Notes: a model not told the origin generated them from the sequence alone. Counted from the stretch's first letter, positions 28,301-37,606 are shown. The stretch: 64,000 bases of DNA from Pseudomonadota bacterium (GCA_014584465.1 JACTMU010000081.1:1-64000); one strand, 5' to 3'. A program made the numbers and translations.

Positions 28301-30271
28301 TCAGGCTGCTTGTTCTCGTGCAGGCTCCCACTCAAGGTAGGGAAGCTCAACCACCAATCGAGTCCCTTTTTGGACTGTAGAGAAGATCTCGACCGTCCCG
28401 CCCAACTTGTTCACAGCCACCTTAATTGCATCCATCCCGATTCCCCTACCCGATATCTGGGTGACCTCTCCGCGAGTTGAAAAGTGGCTGTCAAATACAT
28501 GTTGAATCAATTGATGCTCAGACTCAGTTTCACACGCCAAGTTCCCCTGGCTCTTTAGCTTCTCTTTCACACGTTTGGGATCAACCCCTGCACCGTCATC
28601 TTCAATCTCAATTCGAATCTGCCGCTTCAAACCCTTTCCGAAAAGTGAGATCGCGACCTCAACATGACCCTCCGGACTCTTTCCCAGCTTCTCCCTTACC
28701 TCAGGAGTCTCAATCCCATGATCCACAATGTTTCGAAAGAGGTGAATCAACGAAGAGAAGAACTCTTCGTAGGGGGTAGGAAAAATCATTAGATTGCCCC
28801 CGACAACGCGCATTGAGGAGACTCTCTTTCCAAGCTTCTGTGCCAACTCAGAGATCGCGGATTCAAATTCTCGAATGAATCTTTCAATCGGTTCTCTAAA
28901 AAAGAGGTTCAAAGACCTCTGATAGATCCTCAGACTCGGATCCAGTTCCTTAACCTCAGCACAGAATTGCATCAAAGCATGGGAATCCACACTTACAGTC
29001 TTCTCACCATCTTCAAACTCCACCCCCAGAATGTCCCTATTTCCATGAACAAAGCTTCGCAAAAGTGAGTTGACCTGTAAAAAGTCGGACCTCAATTGCG
29101 ATACTGGCTCGACCTTAGATTGAGGTCCTTGATTCTTCAACGTTGCAAGCTGCTCCTCACACCTGTGACACAGAGCCACCACTTCATCCAAATCAAAGGT
29201 CGCAGCACCGCCTTTGAGTGTGTGAGCCGCCCGAAACAGGGACTCCAAACCAAACCCCTCACTCCTAGAGTCAGAAGACAAAAACAGATCAAGTTCGGCA
29301 ACAGCAGAAGCAACGATCTTTTTTGCATCGTTCAAAAACGTAAGGAAGTGGCGCTTGTTCTTTGCCAGTCGAACAATTCGTCGAGCGAAACTTCTCTCTC
29401 TTTCGGCCTCTTGCTTGGCCTCAAACTCCGCAGTCTCATCTTTGACCACCACCACAACCGCACTGACAGAATCATCTACCAACCGCATCGGATGGTATTC
29501 AAGCCGAATCTGTTTGTTTTCAGAATGGCAAAACTTTGATGGACCTAGTGGAACCAAATCCTCAAACGGAAGAGGTTCAGCAAAGAGTGTCTTGCACCAA
29601 TCATAAAATGTCGCTTTCTCTTCAATTGGTATCCGTAAAACATCACTGATATTCTGTCGTGCTGGTGACCCTTCAAGAAGCCTTTCACAGGCTTTTGAAT
29701 AAGTCGACAAGCAGATTCCAGACCGATTGAAGATAAAGAAACCCTCAGAAAGACTGTTGATCATGGCCTTTAGGAGATTATTTAAATTTTCCAGTTCAAG
29801 CGTTCGCTCTTGGACCTTCTTTTCCAAATTTTTTGAATAGTCTTCAAGTTGCATCTGAGCCGATCTTAGATCAACGATCAGGTCATCCTTGTGTTGAAGC
29901 TCCGCAAGGTACTTATCCTGAAGCTGCCGTTCCAGAGTAACATCTCGGACGTACATGATCCACATAGGATCATTCCCGTCCGATCCCCTATCCAACTGAA
30001 AGGAGACCCTGACATCTCCAGACTTCCCTGACATAGAATCAAAATGGACCTCTCGATATGGAGAGGCTTCTTTGATGGCCCACAGTTCGCTCACGTCCTC
30101 AAACAGTTCCGGATCAAAGGTTGCGATCTCACTTAAAACCTTTCCATCTCTAAGTCTTCTTATACTTACCTCAAAAAGCGCTCCTGCAGCCACATTTGCG
30201 TACCAAACCCTTAAATTACGATCAATCACAACGACGGCATCAAGGAAGTTATCAAAGACAGCATAACTCAT
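28301..30271 (-). CDS. PAS-HPt-HATPase hybrid kinase (CheA-like catalytic region)
   Basis: PAS-like N-terminus; HPt motif RAAHTLKGGAATFDLDEVV; CheA-type N-box HLFRNIVDHGIETPEVREKLGK; G-boxes IEDDGAGVDPKRVK, SGRGIGMDAIKVAVNKLGG. No CheW-like domain visible. Confidence 0.88.
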   Translation of the reverse strand: MSYAVFDNFLDAVVVIDRNLRVWYANVAAGALFEVSIRRLRDGKVLSEIATFDPELFEDVSELWAIKEASPYREVHFDSMSGKSGDVRVSFQLDRGSDGNDPMWIMYVRDVTLERQLQDKYLAELQHKDDLIVDLRSAQMQLEDYSKNLEKKVQERTLELENLNNLLKAMINSLSEGFFIFNRSGICLSTYSKACERLLEGSPARQNISDVLRIPIEEKATFYDWCKTLFAEPLPFEDLVPLGPSKFCHSENKQIRLEYHPMRLVDDSVSAVVVVVKDETAEFEAKQEAERERSFARRIVRLAKNKRHFLTFLNDAKKIVASAVAELDLFLSSDSRSEGFGLESLFRAAHTLKGGAATFDLDEVVALCHRCEEQLATLKNQGPQSKVEPVSQLRSDFLQVNSLLRSFVHGNRDILGVEFEDGEKTVSVDSHALMQFCAEVKELDPSLRIYQRSLNLFFREPIERFIREFESAISELAQKLGKRVSSMRVVGGNLMIFPTPYEEFFSSLIHLFRNIVDHGIETPEVREKLGKSPEGHVEVAISLFGKGLKRQIRIEIEDDGAGVDPKRVKEKLKSQGNLACETESEHQLIQHVFDSHFSTRGEVTQISGRGIGMDAIKVAVNKLGGTVEIFSTVQKGTRLVVELPYLEWEPAREQAA

Positions 30272-30273
30272 CG

Positions 30274-32208
30274 CTAGCTTCCAAATCTTTTCACAATACT
30301 ATTAAAGATTGATGTAATTCCTGTCCGAGTCCCCTCTTGTGAACTTTTAAGAGTGATCAAGTTCAGCTCTCTTTTTGCCTCAATCATTGAGGGATCATCG
30401 CTGATTGCAAGCTCAAAATTTCTACGCGCCAACTCATAATCGCCCACAAGCCTTTTGTAGAGACCCTTGACAAAGTAGTAGACGGCTGCATGTCGATCCT
30501 CAGGAGGAATCGCCGACAACTCCTTTTCAATGGAGTCGCTCAATACGCTGTTCATCTGACCCTCTTTAATCCCCTTCATCTTGATCCACAACAAGAGCAA
30601 TTTGAGTTCAGATGTTGATTCCATAACCTTCTCGGCGTCGCTAAAACATTGTAAAGCTTCTTGAATCCTGCCTTTCTTCAAAAAGTCCTTCCCTTGATCC
30701 AAAATGCCTTCATATTTCATTTGAGATTTTGCCTCTTTTGCACCAAGCTCATCAATGTACTTTGCCCTTTGCTCTGGATTGGTAATGACTTTGTATGCAG
30801 CTGTAACTTTCGCAAAGATATTTCCAGTCAACTCTTGAACCTCTTTTGGTGCTCCAACTATCTTATCGGGGTGTAGGAACTTTGATATCTCCCGGTAGGC
30901 CTTGTGAATCTCATGTTCACGAGCATTCCGATTGATTCCCAGTATTTCGAAAATCTCGAAATGATTCTTTCCTTCAACATCTTGAGTTAACTTCTTCACA
31001 CGCGCCAAATGATTTCTATAATCCACCTTTGAAACATTATCACTAAAGACAACGAATCTCTTAGCTAACAGTAAGTAGACCGATTTGTAGATGAGGTCCT
31101 CAGAATATTGACCCATATCAATCAGAGATTGAATTGTAGTACCTGAAGAGACGAGATCCCGAACTCCTTCCATTTGGGATAACACAGGACTGGCCCACAA
31201 TGAGTGCACTTTTTCAAACTGAGGTCCTGCATCAATCCTGTGATCGAGCCACGAACGGAAAAAGGATCGAAACCACACTGTTGAGATCTTTGAATTGATC
31301 CAATCATGAAGATAGGAGGTAAACGCCATCTCACTGATGCATGGGACCTTCGGCTCAATCTTGGTTGGTGAAAAATTCATCTGATAGGTTGTGTCCAAAA
31401 CAATTCTCCCAAGTCGAATGGCCATCTGCTCAGCCAATGCTATAGGAACCGCATGGGGACTGAGAAGATTTGCCTGAATCAGCCGCTCACCCAAGGGCAG
31501 TTGACTTGCCTCAAAAGTAAAATCCACAAGATCTGAATGAGAAACGTATCCCTGTTCCACAAGAAGTTGTCCTAGAAAACTCCGTTCATCCTTGATATCG
31601 ACATGAACAACTGTTCCTTCACCAAACGAAATACCAGAAACTTCCCCCTTTTCGTTCACAATATTCAGATGCCCTCCGGCTTTTGCGTGAACCAAAAAGG
31701 CATATATGAGCGGGAGTTCAAACCCGTGAACTCTCTCTAGACCCTCAATGGACTTTATGATCTCTCTTTTTGTGGGTTTGTTATTACTGATGATCGTATA
31801 AATTGCATCTTGAATCACCTCCTCCTTCCTGTCAAAAGTCTGATCCAAGACATCCAATATCTCTTTAACTTCAAAAGGCTTGCTAAGAAATGTGAGAGCA
31901 TTTGATTGTTTCAACGCATCTCGCACAAAACTTCGATCTTTAAAAATCCCACTGATAAGCACCGTTGGTAACTTGTGGCCAAGTTGCTCTTCTATTTTCA
32001 AAGACAACTCAACCCCATTCATCTTAGGAAGCATGCAATCAATGATGGCACCCTGAACCGCTTGGGTCCGTACCAGCGTCAGCGCCTCCTGAGCATTGGT
32101 CGCATAAAGGGTGGTGTATCCATGCCGAGATACAGCCTCACAAAGGGAGGATCCAAGACCCTCATCATCCTCTGCAACCAATATTTTTACAGCATTTTTG
32201 TTACTCAT
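30274..32208 (-). CDS. REC - PATAN/DUF4388-like - DnaJ - TPR protein
   Basis: REC: ILVAEDDEGLGSSL...GAIIDCMLPKMNGVELS...FLSKPF; DnaJ: HFEIFEILGINRNAREHEIHKAYREISKFLHPDKIVG (HPD); C-terminal TPR. Confidence 0.87.
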   Translation of the reverse strand: MSNKNAVKILVAEDDEGLGSSLCEAVSRHGYTTLYATNAQEALTLVRTQAVQGAIIDCMLPKMNGVELSLKIEEQLGHKLPTVLISGIFKDRSFVRDALKQSNALTFLSKPFEVKEILDVLDQTFDRKEEVIQDAIYTIISNNKPTKREIIKSIEGLERVHGFELPLIYAFLVHAKAGGHLNIVNEKGEVSGISFGEGTVVHVDIKDERSFLGQLLVEQGYVSHSDLVDFTFEASQLPLGERLIQANLLSPHAVPIALAEQMAIRLGRIVLDTTYQMNFSPTKIEPKVPCISEMAFTSYLHDWINSKISTVWFRSFFRSWLDHRIDAGPQFEKVHSLWASPVLSQMEGVRDLVSSGTTIQSLIDMGQYSEDLIYKSVYLLLAKRFVVFSDNVSKVDYRNHLARVKKLTQDVEGKNHFEIFEILGINRNAREHEIHKAYREISKFLHPDKIVGAPKEVQELTGNIFAKVTAAYKVITNPEQRAKYIDELGAKEAKSQMKYEGILDQGKDFLKKGRIQEALQCFSDAEKVMESTSELKLLLLWIKMKGIKEGQMNSVLSDSIEKELSAIPPEDRHAAVYYFVKGLYKRLVGDYELARRNFELAISDDPSMIEAKRELNLITLKSSQEGTRTGITSIFNSIVKRFGS

Positions 32209-32212
32209 ACAC

Positions 32213-32707
32213 CTACGATACTTTCAGAAATTTAAAGTACTTTGCGGAGATTACATCAATTTCATATTCGCCACCGACATCATCAAAGGTCATGGTCTCC
32301 TGAAAATTGACAAAGCCTGGATTCGACCCCATCGGTTGACGAAAGTCTCTCTCTCTCTCCAAAAGAATGGATCGATCCGCATCGTTCTCCTCACAGTAGT
32401 AGGGAACATAGAACGATTCAACATACACATTCTTCGGAAGGAAACCAGAAACCATATTGACCTGATCAATCACAATCTTTGGACAGCAATGGAAATGAAC
32501 CTCATAGGTCTGGGACAGTGGCTGTATCCACTTGACCCACTCTCGTATTCCACAGGAGTTGATTGTCTTGAGTTGTCTAAGATCAATATGCACCTCACGA
32601 ATCTTCTCAGTGATCACAGGCAGTTTTGCATCTTCGTCAAGACTCCCAGAAAATTCGAAATGAACTAGATCACCGTCCACTTTTTTTTGTACTTGAAATA
32701 CTGCCAT
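32213..32707 (-). CDS. STAS-like (anti-sigma-factor-antagonist-like) protein
   Basis: FEFSGSLDEDAKLPVITEKIREVHIDLRQLKTINSCGIREWVKWIQPL: STAS-like strand/helix pattern with Ser at the expected position. Confidence 0.65.
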   Translation of the reverse strand: MAVFQVQKKVDGDLVHFEFSGSLDEDAKLPVITEKIREVHIDLRQLKTINSCGIREWVKWIQPLSQTYEVHFHCCPKIVIDQVNMVSGFLPKNVYVESFYVPYYCEENDADRSILLERERDFRQPMGSNPGFVNFQETMTFDDVGGEYEIDVISAKYFKFLKVS

Positions 32708-32776
32708 TACTTCCTCCTCTTTCTTCCTCGATCACCTCGAGCACGATGAAAAACTCTCATGGTTTTCACCTTTTCA

Positions 32777-34630
32777 CTATGAAGCTTTCTCTAAGCCTTC
32801 AAATCGGCAGAGAAAGATTGTAAAATCGTCATTGAGAGGCGCATCCTCTCTAAAAGCAAATGCTTCGTTCTTTACAGTTTCAACCACGGTGGTCGAATTT
32901 CCCTTTGCAGAGACTGCTCCCAGCAAGGACTTGATGAATCGGCGTTCACCCCATGACTCTCCCGACTTGTTTTGCAAATCAAGAACACCATCTGTATAAA
33001 GAGCGATGGAGTCACCTTCACACAAATTAATGGTAGTTTCCAAGAAGTTGACATCACGCTGCTGTCCCAATCTCGGATTGTTGACCTCGTTTAATAGCAC
33101 AATATCCTTCTTCTTTAAGGGCTCATCTGAAGCTCTCAACAGGTAAGGTGGATCATGACTCGCATTTGAGTAGGTCAATACTCCGGTTTGCTTGTCAATT
33201 GCACCGAGAAAAAACGTCATCATAAAGCGAGATTTAGACGTCTCATAGATGGCACGATTCATAAGAAACAGAGCTTTGGCAGGGGTAATGTCCGGAAAAC
33301 ACTCCACAATCGCCGAAGCAGATTTCGCGGCACTTGTGATGAGGGCCGCAGGAGCACCATGTCCCGTGGCGTCCCCAATCCAAAAGAAGATGCGATCACC
33401 AATTTCACTGTAATGCCACCAATCACCACCAATTTCACTGGCTGGCTCGAAGAAGCCTGAAATATGTACTGCGCCAAGGTCAGAGGAAGGTGGCGGAAGA
33501 AGGTTTTCCTGGACCACCTGCGCTGTCTTAAGTTCATTCTCCATCCTTGCCTTTTCAGCTGTCTCACTCATAAGCCGAGAGACCTCAACTGCCATCTTGT
33601 TGAATCCTTGAGCAAGACTTCCAACCTCATCCTTTGAAGTTGCTAAGACTTTAATGTCAAAATCTCCATGGGAGATCTTTTTAGTTGCAAGGTAGAGCTG
33701 CCGTAAGGCACTTGTCATCTTCTGAGAGGCAAAGACACTCACGATGACAGTTGCAGAGATCAGAGCGACAAAAAAGAGAATGGACTTGATCAACAGGGAC
33801 TGAACGGCTGCAAGCGCGGCTCCACGCTCCACAAATGAAGTTACTGTAAGCTCCCCAACACCAACTTTTGCGTAAGAGGCGAGAAACTCAGACCCCTTCG
33901 AAGTTCGAACCTCTTTGGTCCCCTCATTTGAATATTCCCCTTTAAAGGACCCGAACTCTTGAGCCACAATGGAGGTCAAATTGACATCTCGATCCTTTGG
34001 GCCCATCAAAGTCTCACCGTTGGGACCAAAGAGATACTTCGTATAGATGTCCGACTGATGAAAGATTTCAAAAAGGGTTGTATCTTGAACTACCGAGATG
34101 AAAACCCAGTGCTTTTGAGCAGATTGCACATGGTGCTTGACACCCACCAAGATGTCGTTGGATCCGTTGTCAATGGGAAGAATGAGCAGGTTTTCTTGAT
34201 TGATACGAGTAAGTATCTGTTCTACATAGGCACGATAGCTCGTAAGATAGGCATCAGCTGCCACACTTTTTTGAAGAAACGCGGATTTTTTCGGCATTGT
34301 GGAGCTACTTAGATCAAAAACCACAATCATTGAGAAACGACTCTCCTTCTGAAAAAGTGACTGAGAGATGTGATCAAATTTTGTCTCGTTCAGATCAAAA
34401 CCCTCAAATATGGGCTGCATGGAAGACAAGATTGAACCAATGTTTGAGTGAACTTGTGCTGCAATGGCCCTTGTGGTCGTGACACTCGAATCCAACACAT
34501 AGGCAATCTTGTCTTTCTTGAACAGATCGACCGCAAGAGCTAGGTAGAGAGAAAGTGTCACCAGTGGAATCACTGTAAGCGTTAGAATCAACTTGAATCG
34601 AATAGGAAACTTCACCCTCTGTTCTGTCAT
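32777..34630 (-). CDS. HAMP-SpoIIE (PP2C-type) serine phosphatase with periplasmic sensor region
   Basis: Two TMs, HAMP (LYLATKKISHGDFDIKVLATSKDEVGSLAQGFNKMAVEVSRLM), PP2C: EIGGDWWHYSEIGDRIFFWIGDATGHGAPAALITS, IALYTDGVLDLQNKSGESWGERRF, PLNDDFTIFL. Confidence 0.93.
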   Translation of the reverse strand: MTEQRVKFPIRFKLILTLTVIPLVTLSLYLALAVDLFKKDKIAYVLDSSVTTTRAIAAQVHSNIGSILSSMQPIFEGFDLNETKFDHISQSLFQKESRFSMIVVFDLSSSTMPKKSAFLQKSVAADAYLTSYRAYVEQILTRINQENLLILPIDNGSNDILVGVKHHVQSAQKHWVFISVVQDTTLFEIFHQSDIYTKYLFGPNGETLMGPKDRDVNLTSIVAQEFGSFKGEYSNEGTKEVRTSKGSEFLASYAKVGVGELTVTSFVERGAALAAVQSLLIKSILFFVALISATVIVSVFASQKMTSALRQLYLATKKISHGDFDIKVLATSKDEVGSLAQGFNKMAVEVSRLMSETAEKARMENELKTAQVVQENLLPPPSSDLGAVHISGFFEPASEIGGDWWHYSEIGDRIFFWIGDATGHGAPAALITSAAKSASAIVECFPDITPAKALFLMNRAIYETSKSRFMMTFFLGAIDKQTGVLTYSNASHDPPYLLRASDEPLKKKDIVLLNEVNNPRLGQQRDVNFLETTINLCEGDSIALYTDGVLDLQNKSGESWGERRFIKSLLGAVSAKGNSTTVVETVKNEAFAFREDAPLNDDFTIFLCRFEGLEKAS

Positions 34631-34765
34631 GCTTGTCTTATCGGAGGCAACGCCACGGGCAATGAGCTGCCGCTAGGTCCAGAAATGGCAGGACTCAGCT
34701 AAGGACCGCCCTCAAGATCGACCTCAGGCCAGTCAATTCCTAGGTCAAAACGTACGATATAGATA

Positions 34766-37606
34766 GTGGTGAAAGAGGAAAGAGAGAACTTAGACTACTT
34801 GATCGTTGGGATCTCATTTGTGATCTTCGTGGCATCGGTCTACCTTGTTCTCGATGATCGGTGGCTTTTTCATATCGGCGAGAGACAGTACAGTGCAACT
34901 GATGCGGTCGGGAAGATCTCAAGCTACCAATCGGATGTTCGTCGAAAATACAAACGAGCTTTCTATTGGATGCCGGTGCGCGAAGAGGATCCTGTCTTCG
35001 AAGAAGACAGTCTCTTTACGGGAGAACAATCCGAAGCCAGTGTCGAGCTCAGCAGTGGCATTGTGCTTGAAGTCGCTCCGAAGAGCCTCATCGTTCTCCG
35101 AAAGGGAGTGCAGTCCGATGAGTTTGTACTTGATGTTCGCTACGGTTCCTTCCTCGGAAAAGTAAATCAAAGTCAAAAACTCAAGGTTTCTCACGCTGGT
35201 CAAACCACTGAGATCAGTGGGGACAAGGCCACATTCAAGATTGACACCACTGGCAAGAGTGGCGTTGGAATCAATGTTGTTTCAGGGAAAGCCAAAGTTG
35301 CTGCCAAAAACAAAACGGTGGAGCTCTCAAAGAATCAATATACAGACGTGAATAAGAGCGGCGATCTCGGACAAGTCAAGGAACTCGACATTGAACTCAT
35401 AGTGCCCGCCGAAGGAGCTCGACTTTGGCAGGAGGAAGATGCCCCTGTTGAATTTAAGTGGCGCAGTTCAAAACCCTCTGAAAAGGTTCGTCTTGAAGTG
35501 GCAAAAGATGGTGACTTTAAGAACCTGGTCTTCAAAAAGAGCCTTGAAGGTGAGGCGGTCCAGGCACGTCTTGCAAACCAACGAGGACTTCTTCATTGGC
35601 GGATCATTGAATCTGACAAAAAGACCACGAAGGTTGTTCTTCGTAATTCTACGTCTCGATTTCACCTCCTTTCTAAGAGTCCACCCAGACCCGTCTCTCC
35701 AAAGGACGATGTTGAAATTGTAATTCCCATCCATCGAAAACAATTCAGAGCCAATGACCACTCTGGTCTTCGAATTCCAATTTCTTTAAACTGGGCTGAA
35801 GATAATGGCTGGGGCAGATTCGATGTTGAAATCTCAAAGTCAGAGGACTTTGGTATTGGAACCGAATCCTACATCGCCAACGCTGCCCCAATGAGAACTA
35901 AGGCCCTCGAACAAGGATCGTACTATTGGCGGGTTCGTTACAATGACCCTAAGCCTGGAACGAACCACAGTTGGTCCAAAGTCGCATCATTTCATGTTGT
36001 TGAAAAACTAATGGATAAACCTCTCACGGGTCCAAAACTTTCCAACGTGGAGCTCTTCAAAGTTCGCTACAAGTATGAAGTCTCAGGCGAAGATGAAGAC
36101 CTCAAAGTTCTTCGGAAACTGAACAGTGCTTCTCCTCAGTTTCAATGGTCTACGATTCCCGATGCCAGCCACTATCTCTTTGAACTCTCCGATCGAAAAG
36201 AGTTCGACCGAATTCTTACAAGAAAGAGCGTTGCCCGTACTGAGTTCAACTGGGATCAAGTTCAACCAGGCAACTACTATTGGCGCGTCCATGCCGTTGA
36301 CATCTTAGATCAACCCGGACACTATAGCTCTACTAAAGCCATCCGTGTTGTCAAAGATTTGGCACCAGCACCTGTGATCCAGAATCGAGAGCTTAAAATT
36401 CTGCTCCCTTATGATCATGAAGAAGAAGCCACATCGACAACAGCAGGTCACGCCGCCCTAAGGTGGTCCTCCATTGAAGAAGCTAAGAGGTATGAGATTC
36501 AGATCTCTCCAAATGAGACCTTCAATGAGCCGGTGAAGCGGCTTGTGTCTCGCGAGACTGGACACATATGGCAGGCTCCTTCACAGGGTCGTTTCTACTG
36601 GCGTGTTCGCGCCGTTGATTGGGACAACGACCCCGGTCATTTCAGTGAATTGGGAAAGATTGAAGTTCAGTCTCCAACCTGGGGAGCGCCACTCGTAGAG
36701 GCTTTTGATCATGATCGACTGCTGGTTGACGATGACCTTGTAGAACCTAAGGTCGGAAGTCCTCTGAAAAAGCCCCCTAGGTTCAGTTGGTCTGAACTGA
36801 GTTATGTCAAAAGATATCAAATCGAAATATCCTCCACCGAATCCTTCGAAGAGCCCCTTCTTCGAAAGATCATTGACTCAAATGAGTATCAATGGAGTGA
36901 AGCAAGACCTGGGCGATATTTCTTCCGCGTTCAAGGTCTGAGAAGTGAGCGAAAGAGAGGACCCTTTAGCAACTCTGTACCGATCAAACTTTTGACTCAC
37001 GAACTGATTGCAAAAAAGACCGACGAGACCATTCAGCGCCTCCTGGCCTCAACGGATCATCTTAGGAAAAATGTGGATCCCGTACGAATTGAGTGGAATA
37101 AAACCTTCGTCCCCGATCAATACGAAGTTGAAGTGTCCAGATCAGATGATTTTGGAACTCCTGTTCGTCACCTTACCGAAAGCTCATGGTTTGACTACGT
37201 ACCCAAGATCAATGGATCTCACTTTTGGCGTGTGAGACCTTTGAATAAGCTCAAGCAACCCCTTGCGCCCTTTTCTTCGGTCAACAGGTTTCATTTCAGT
37301 CAAAAATTGGGAATGCCACACCCACGAATCGCTTCTCCAAGAAATGAAGAGCCGTTCATTATCACTCCCCATCTTCCGAATCTACTGATACTCACATGGA
37401 ACAAAGTTCCTGGAGCCTCGGTTTACTCTGTGGAGATGTCACAGACGAAGGATTTTTCAACACTCCTCTTCAGTGGAAAATCGAGATCCAACTCCTTCTT
37501 GGTGAAACAGCCACCTCCTAAAGGAATCATCTATTGGCGAGTTAAAGCTCTCTCCTCTGAGACCGAATCCGAGTGGTGCCCCACAGAAAGCTTCGAAGTG
37601 AAATAG
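34766..37606 (+). CDS. FecR-domain protein with tandem Fn3-like repeats
   Basis: FecR-like region (VLEVAPKSLIVLRKG...LDVRYGSFLGKV...ATFKIDTTGKSGVGINVVSGKAKVAAKNKTVELSKNQYTDV), then repeats ending YYWRVRY / YYWRVHAVD / FYWRVRAVD / YFFRVQG / HFWRVRP / IYWRVKAL. Confidence 0.75.
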   Translation: MVKEERENLDYLIVGISFVIFVASVYLVLDDRWLFHIGERQYSATDAVGKISSYQSDVRRKYKRAFYWMPVREEDPVFEEDSLFTGEQSEASVELSSGIVLEVAPKSLIVLRKGVQSDEFVLDVRYGSFLGKVNQSQKLKVSHAGQTTEISGDKATFKIDTTGKSGVGINVVSGKAKVAAKNKTVELSKNQYTDVNKSGDLGQVKELDIELIVPAEGARLWQEEDAPVEFKWRSSKPSEKVRLEVAKDGDFKNLVFKKSLEGEAVQARLANQRGLLHWRIIESDKKTTKVVLRNSTSRFHLLSKSPPRPVSPKDDVEIVIPIHRKQFRANDHSGLRIPISLNWAEDNGWGRFDVEISKSEDFGIGTESYIANAAPMRTKALEQGSYYWRVRYNDPKPGTNHSWSKVASFHVVEKLMDKPLTGPKLSNVELFKVRYKYEVSGEDEDLKVLRKLNSASPQFQWSTIPDASHYLFELSDRKEFDRILTRKSVARTEFNWDQVQPGNYYWRVHAVDILDQPGHYSSTKAIRVVKDLAPAPVIQNRELKILLPYDHEEEATSTTAGHAALRWSSIEEAKRYEIQISPNETFNEPVKRLVSRETGHIWQAPSQGRFYWRVRAVDWDNDPGHFSELGKIEVQSPTWGAPLVEAFDHDRLLVDDDLVEPKVGSPLKKPPRFSWSELSYVKRYQIEISSTESFEEPLLRKIIDSNEYQWSEARPGRYFFRVQGLRSERKRGPFSNSVPIKLLTHELIAKKTDETIQRLLASTDHLRKNVDPVRIEWNKTFVPDQYEVEVSRSDDFGTPVRHLTESSWFDYVPKINGSHFWRVRPLNKLKQPLAPFSSVNRFHFSQKLGMPHPRIASPRNEEPFIITPHLPNLLILTWNKVPGASVYSVEMSQTKDFSTLLFSGKSRSNSFLVKQPPPKGIIYWRVKALSSETESEWCPTESFEVK

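Follow-up and report, generated by a model that had tools for sequence, protein, structure and literature searches.

Organization of the locus and its distribution

At the gene level, the segment considered here lies in a window of 64,000 nucleotides (the whole stretch of DNA that was analysed, itself part of a 3.75-Mb draft genome) and contains four minus-strand open reading frames (ORFs) followed by a divergent gene:

28301-30271, minus strand: KIN, a protein with PAS, HPt and CheA-type HATPase domains (ORF and Pfam)
30274-32208, minus strand: RDJ, a REC-PATAN-DnaJ-TPR protein (ORF and Pfam)
32213-32707, minus strand: STAS, a SpoIIAA-like protein of 164 aa with a C-terminal extension (ORF and AlphaFold/PDB match)
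32777-34630, minus strand: SPO, a membrane-anchored HAMP-SpoIIE (PP2C/PPM-type) Ser/Thr phosphatase (ORF and Pfam)
34631-34765, no strand: divergent intergenic region of 135 bp, the probable site of both promoters (position only)
34766-37606, plus strand: FECR, a divergent FecR-like protein gene (FecR match and conserved position)

The gaps between the four minus-strand ORFs are 2, 4 and 69 bp, and an ORF check of the window returned exactly the coordinates and gaps given in the first-pass annotation of this DNA. A comparison of loci showed that the four genes are co-located in many relatives, as that annotation had expected; the set is therefore not a chance run, and an operon of four signalling genes is confirmed. 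A consensus scan for terminators found about as many sites as in shuffled sequence and none in the three gaps, and a consensus scan for promoters, which included the 135-bp divergent region, was uninformative. No type IV pilus or chemotaxis genes were recognised in the operon and no sigma factor gene in the module, and Pfam detected a GGDEF domain neither in the operon nor in the neighbours tested.

The module also comprises FECR, which was missing from the gene list of the first-pass annotation. Its product has an N-terminal hydrophobic stretch followed by Ig/FnIII-like repeats, with a FecR domain that falls below the Pfam cut-off in the window protein (E 0.0068) and reaches 2e-7 in an orthologue (L083). 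Comparison of loci across families places a FecR-like homologue beside SPO, and the FECR and KIN genes of Bdellovibrio-type loci share a 4-bp overlap.

The four genes together with FECR recur across Bdellovibrionales, and the core FECR-SPO-STAS recurs across the phylum. Most of the named relatives are Bdellovibrionales or belong elsewhere in the Bdellovibrionota; among them are B. bacteriovorus strain kdesi (L204) and Bdellovibrio sp. qaytius (L223). Two layouts are common. In Bdellovibrio-type genomes FECR-KIN is divergent from SPO-STAS-RDJ, whereas the order in family f4 is SPO-X-STAS-KIN-REC-RDJ, X being a candidate opposing Ser kinase. At the 30 loci where STAS is flanked on both sides by 7.5 kb or more, SPO lies nearby in 23, KIN in 26, RDJ in 21 and FECR in 20, counts that are descriptive because the loci were found via STAS and some labels come from domain-level matches. 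Several f4 clusters lack SPO and have ribD-type and other metabolic genes as neighbours, and SPO homologues lie elsewhere in those genomes. In other orders of the phylum FECR-SPO-STAS recurs, usually with X, and matches to KIN and RDJ are weak, short or absent. When 144 genomes of the phylum were sampled, 104 proved to have the STAS family, 33 of them belonging to the same order.

The phosphatase and the STAS protein

SPO combines a SpoIIE domain (32801-33400, Pfam 4.8e-33) with a HAMP domain (33584-33721, 8.9e-10) and a weak dCache match. The metal-binding Asp residues of the phosphatase are kept in all 71 relatives, and its best structural neighbours in the PDB include Rv1364c and the SiaA phosphatase, the PP2C domain of the latter (6k4e) matching at 5e-10. 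The 164-aa STAS protein has no Pfam match, and its sequence profile is only marginal against the PDB (E 0.06); X has no Pfam match either and its PDB profile search was empty, so that a comparison of folds was needed for both. The AlphaFold model of STAS, built on an alignment of 25 relatives (pLDDT 88.8), has as its top PDB matches the SpoIIAA chains of SpoIIAB complexes, along with other STAS proteins (Foldseek E 9e-5), which agrees with the fold first proposed for it. The motif Asn50-Ser51-x-Gly53 is invariant in 104 of 104 relatives, and it places the putative acceptor as follows:

32555-32557, minus strand: Ser51 codon of STAS, putative phospho-acceptor (motif position)

We take this serine to be the position that is phosphorylated in SpoIIAA and RsbV. 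A SpoIIE/PPM phosphatase with an intact metal site is found adjoining a STAS protein with a conserved serine, and the SpoIIE-STAS partner-switch logic put forward initially, in which SPO would act on STAS, gains support. No target of STAS was found. The window genome encodes two further STAS paralogues. Some STAS paralogues (L123:9517-10050, L124:9250-9747 and L130:8113-8604) carry CxxC pairs resembling a zinc ribbon, and metallo-beta-lactamase-fold genes adjoin those of L124 and L130.

The putative relay arm

The domains of KIN and RDJ that bear on a phosphorelay, together with those in the remainder of RDJ, are located as follows:

28337-28753, minus strand: CheA P4-type HATPase of KIN (Pfam, PDB)
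29081-29338, minus strand: HPt domain of KIN, with His350 (Pfam)
30757-30954, minus strand: DnaJ domain of RDJ (Pfam 3.2e-14)
30865-30873, minus strand: HPD motif of RDJ, residues 446-448 (sequence)
31516-31725, minus strand: PATAN/DUF4388 region of RDJ (Pfam 5.8e-5, just under the cut-off)
31846-32184, minus strand: REC domain of RDJ, with phospho-Asp57 (Pfam 2.6e-15)

In Pfam, KIN shows PAS, Hpt (1e-11) and HATPase_c (4e-16) domains, and its ATPase matches CheA P4 in the PDB (6s1k, 5e-34), so that the HPt (P1) and P4 HATPase pairing of CheA is present. The HPt histidine and the N, G1 and G2 boxes are kept in 66 of 66 relatives. There is no match to a CheW-like P5, P4 ending at residue 645 of 656, in line with the initial description of KIN as a kinase without a CheW domain. 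On the receiving side, RDJ has the acidic pair D14/D15, the phospho-Asp D57, S86 and K110, with D57 intact in 55 of 58 module copies (some genomes being counted twice); its C-terminal TPR-like region matches TPR below the Pfam threshold. These conserved residues fit with the idea, raised at first pass, that transfer from HPt to REC is the likely relay.

In genus g8, 11 genomes yielded no full KIN orthologue, a single short CheA-type ATPase match being all that was found, and their RDJ matches begin at query residue 117 or later, except for one at 77 that runs through stop codons; with so late a start, most or all of REC is missing. In nine KIN-bearing comparison genomes RDJ is full-length. The joint loss of KIN and REC is confined to one clade and thus represents one or few events. 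It is also to be considered that RDJ relatives beside mre genes retain REC even where a search of the genome gave no KIN; KIN can therefore not be the sole possible donor, and the non-module copies would have another. At one g8 locus (L108:6445-9402) an RDJ without REC or J continues in frame into a putative outer-membrane protein, which is a separate ORF in a relative (L109:6856-8292).

The candidate opposing serine kinase

The product of X has about 290 aa and displays an ExxxN box, a D..G box and a GGAGIG box. In many relatives its gene lies between SPO and STAS, an arrangement in which 4-bp overlaps occur; the window operon lacks it. When the window genome was searched with an X alignment, one match was obtained, inside a 602-aa protein encoded elsewhere in the genome:

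G000:C102 5238-7046 (L141:5238-7046): C102 protein, with cNMP-binding, receiver-like and X regions (PF00027 1e-15, X-alignment match)

One region of this protein is receiver-like by eye. The model of its X domain (pLDDT 87.5) finds SpoIIAB and RsbW as best PDB matches, and the X model also has a match to the SiaB-SiaC complex (6kko) that is weaker than the one to SpoIIAB. The key Glu, Asn, Asp and Gly residues are conserved among the X proteins (49) and the cNMP-X proteins (8), apart from one Gly that is substituted once. The distribution of X-type domains follows that of STAS: among 104 genomes of the order, 79 have both, 3 have STAS only (one clear match, in G073, and two marginal ones), none has X only and 22 have neither; as these genomes are related, the co-occurrences are not independent trials. 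Family f17 has fusion proteins in which the X domain follows SPO at its C-terminus (L231, L232, L233 and L249; 857-918 aa). The cNMP-X protein is single-copy, has equivalents in most STAS-bearing relatives and is typically the sole X form in Bdellovibrio-type genomes, several other genomes having the operon form only.

These observations support a role for X-type kinases as the predicted opponents of SPO. Considering the co-occurrence with STAS, the lack of X where STAS is lacking and the fusion to SPO, the C102 protein, rather than KIN, is probably the missing STAS kinase in this genome. Its gene is unlinked to the operon, and since cNMP-X proteins are also found in genomes that have an X of their own, it may serve other STAS paralogues. 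The two genes that follow X in other orders were considered as an output and set aside, being by eye Maf-like and YggS-like housekeeping genes.

The J domain and the paralogues of RDJ

The J domain that the first-pass annotation had described in the window RDJ is present by sequence, with its HPD motif in place. The motif is likewise intact in most f4 module copies and in 33 of 34 RDJ copies without a linked STAS. By contrast, none of the Bdellovibrio-type module copies examined retains HPD, and their J region is degenerate, from which it follows that the DnaK recruitment suggested at first is not a function shared across the module. In the window organism itself, RDJ may be coupled to DnaK. 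The loss of the Hsp70 motif while the remainder of RDJ stays constitutes a natural experiment on the purpose of the J domain.

A second RDJ locus, with the order mreC-mreD-PBP2-rodA-RDJ-(...)-lptF, exists in most families of the order. The tree groups the window protein with the module-borne RDJ copies and splits these from most second-locus copies (25 rows, support 100/99), five of the 25 rows having no STAS in the stretch examined. That the window RDJ might not be the module orthologue had been considered, as its top sequence matches lie outside the module, but the tree rejects it. Its placement there suggests that the paralogue is connected with elongation of the cell or growth of the envelope. 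REC-PATAN-J-TPR paralogues at the mre/rod-lptF locus were seen in L066, L071, L084, L091, L116, L117 and about 20 more.

Proposed mechanism and alternative readings

From the gene anatomy, folds, catalytic residues, synteny and co-occurrence, which the analysis established, we infer every phosphotransfer step and the output of the following scheme. It appears reasonably probable that the locus is a Bdellovibrionota partner-switching module of the SiaABC/RsbUVW kind, to which a CheA-like phosphorelay arm leading to RDJ has been joined. SPO would sense an envelope signal, possibly with FECR, and dephosphorylate STAS on Ser51, which a SpoIIAB/RsbW-type kinase (the best candidate here being the C102 protein) would phosphorylate again; dephosphorylated STAS would bind the kinase and in this way free or activate some target. 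In the other arm, KIN would autophosphorylate on His350 of its HPt domain and pass the phosphate to Asp57 of RDJ, which may act as a PATAN-J-TPR scaffold. Co-transcription suggests that the two arms are set together. The first-pass interpretation is retained here in its architecture, STAS fold, partner-switch logic, HPt-REC relay and neighbourhood, and finds no support as regards KIN as the opposing kinase and DnaK coupling as the function of the module.

The proposal that the CheA-like KIN itself opposes SPO on STAS, in place of RsbW, had its origin in a window operon without an RsbW-type gene, and it could also draw on the adjacency of KIN and STAS in some relatives and on the fact that GHKL ATPases comprise both His and Ser kinases. 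Nevertheless, the HPt histidine and CheA P4 boxes never vary in KIN (66/66), a dedicated X coexists with KIN at many loci and is elsewhere fused to SPO, SPO and STAS persist in genus g8 without KIN (some of the genomes also having X), and X-type domains track STAS across genomes, one of them being available in trans here; taken together, this makes the proposal very improbable. Control of chaperone action by the phosphorelay, with phosphorylated RDJ directing Hsp70 to a client, would be in keeping with the HPD motif of the window, of most f4 copies and of nearly all non-module copies, and it has a precedent in the DnaK1/DnaJ3 pair of Nostoc, which regulates motility polysaccharide depending on type IV pilus activity (PMC9239167). 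It is nonetheless unlikely, given that the Bdellovibrio-type copies examined have lost HPD while 55 of 58 module copies still have an intact REC.

A different question is whether SPO-STAS and KIN-RDJ are unrelated pairs that share an operon and its regulation without crosstalk. FECR-SPO-STAS-X occurs in other orders where no full RDJ is recognisable, paralogues of RDJ are found beside mre/rod genes with no SPO, STAS or KIN nearby, and several of the genomes with mre/rod-RDJ have no KIN or SPO orthologue. Against this weigh the repeated co-location of the genes, in different orders and across families, and the FECR/KIN overlap of Bdellovibrio-type loci, which ties both arms to one FecR-like protein, so that independence of the pairs is rather unlikely. 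Beyond the partner-switching module with its relay arm, which we prefer, a broader version can be envisaged in which the locus integrates envelope signals through Ser phosphorylation of STAS, a His-Asp relay to RDJ and a cyclic-nucleotide-controlled kinase, RDJ acting on elongation or envelope growth; this version is speculative and we give it low credence.

Relation to known systems

In P. aeruginosa, the membrane HAMP-PP2C phosphatase SiaA and the kinase SiaB act on their target SiaC, a protein that has its phosphorylation site at Thr68 and serves as activator of a diguanylate cyclase (PMC7647112, PMC8457831). SPO and the X model resemble this system in their matches to SiaA (6k4e) and to SiaB-SiaC (6kko), respectively, whereas the acceptor position of the module is Ser51, its operon has no cyclase, and FECR, KIN and RDJ are added. 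In the absence of a cyclase, the module is not a member of SiaABCD. Like the RsbUVW and SpoIIE-SpoIIAA-SpoIIAB systems of Bacillus, it has a SpoIIE phosphatase, an acceptor serine at the same motif position of STAS and, in relatives, a GHKL-type kinase; unlike them, it has no recognised sigma factor, its candidate kinase is here unlinked and fused to a cNMP-binding domain, and its STAS protein has a C-terminal extension (with zinc-ribbon-like CxxC pairs in paralogues). In the HptB-HsbR-HsbA system of P. aeruginosa, a PP2C/anti-sigma-kinase/STAS switch is linked to an HPt/REC phosphorelay (PMC6482189). The module would share this coupling, and the SPO-X fusions of f17 recall the phosphatase-kinase order of HsbR; however, the REC of HsbR is fused to its phosphatase-kinase, while that of the module resides on a distinct protein of PATAN-J-TPR type, and SPO brings a membrane-anchored sensor region of its own. 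KIN shares HPt and P4 with CheA but carries a PAS domain, and lacking P5 it is not a CheA chemotaxis kinase. RDJ joins REC to a PATAN/DUF4388-like region as do PATAN-CheY-like regulators (e.g. PixE), and differs from them by its J domain and TPR-like region.

A literature search, from which subscription journals were largely out of reach, found no paper describing the module. Its genes, which also occur in Bdellovibrio bacteriovorus and have stayed linked throughout a phylum whose members are largely predators, make good candidates for a switch in a central decision. As the analysis names a kinase candidate for STAS and a receiver for KIN, each step is open to single-gene tests. Bdellovibrionota module genes were also seen on contigs titled Nitrosovibrio sp. 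(L210) and Streptomyces griseus (L219), bins that for this reason are probably misnamed or contaminated.
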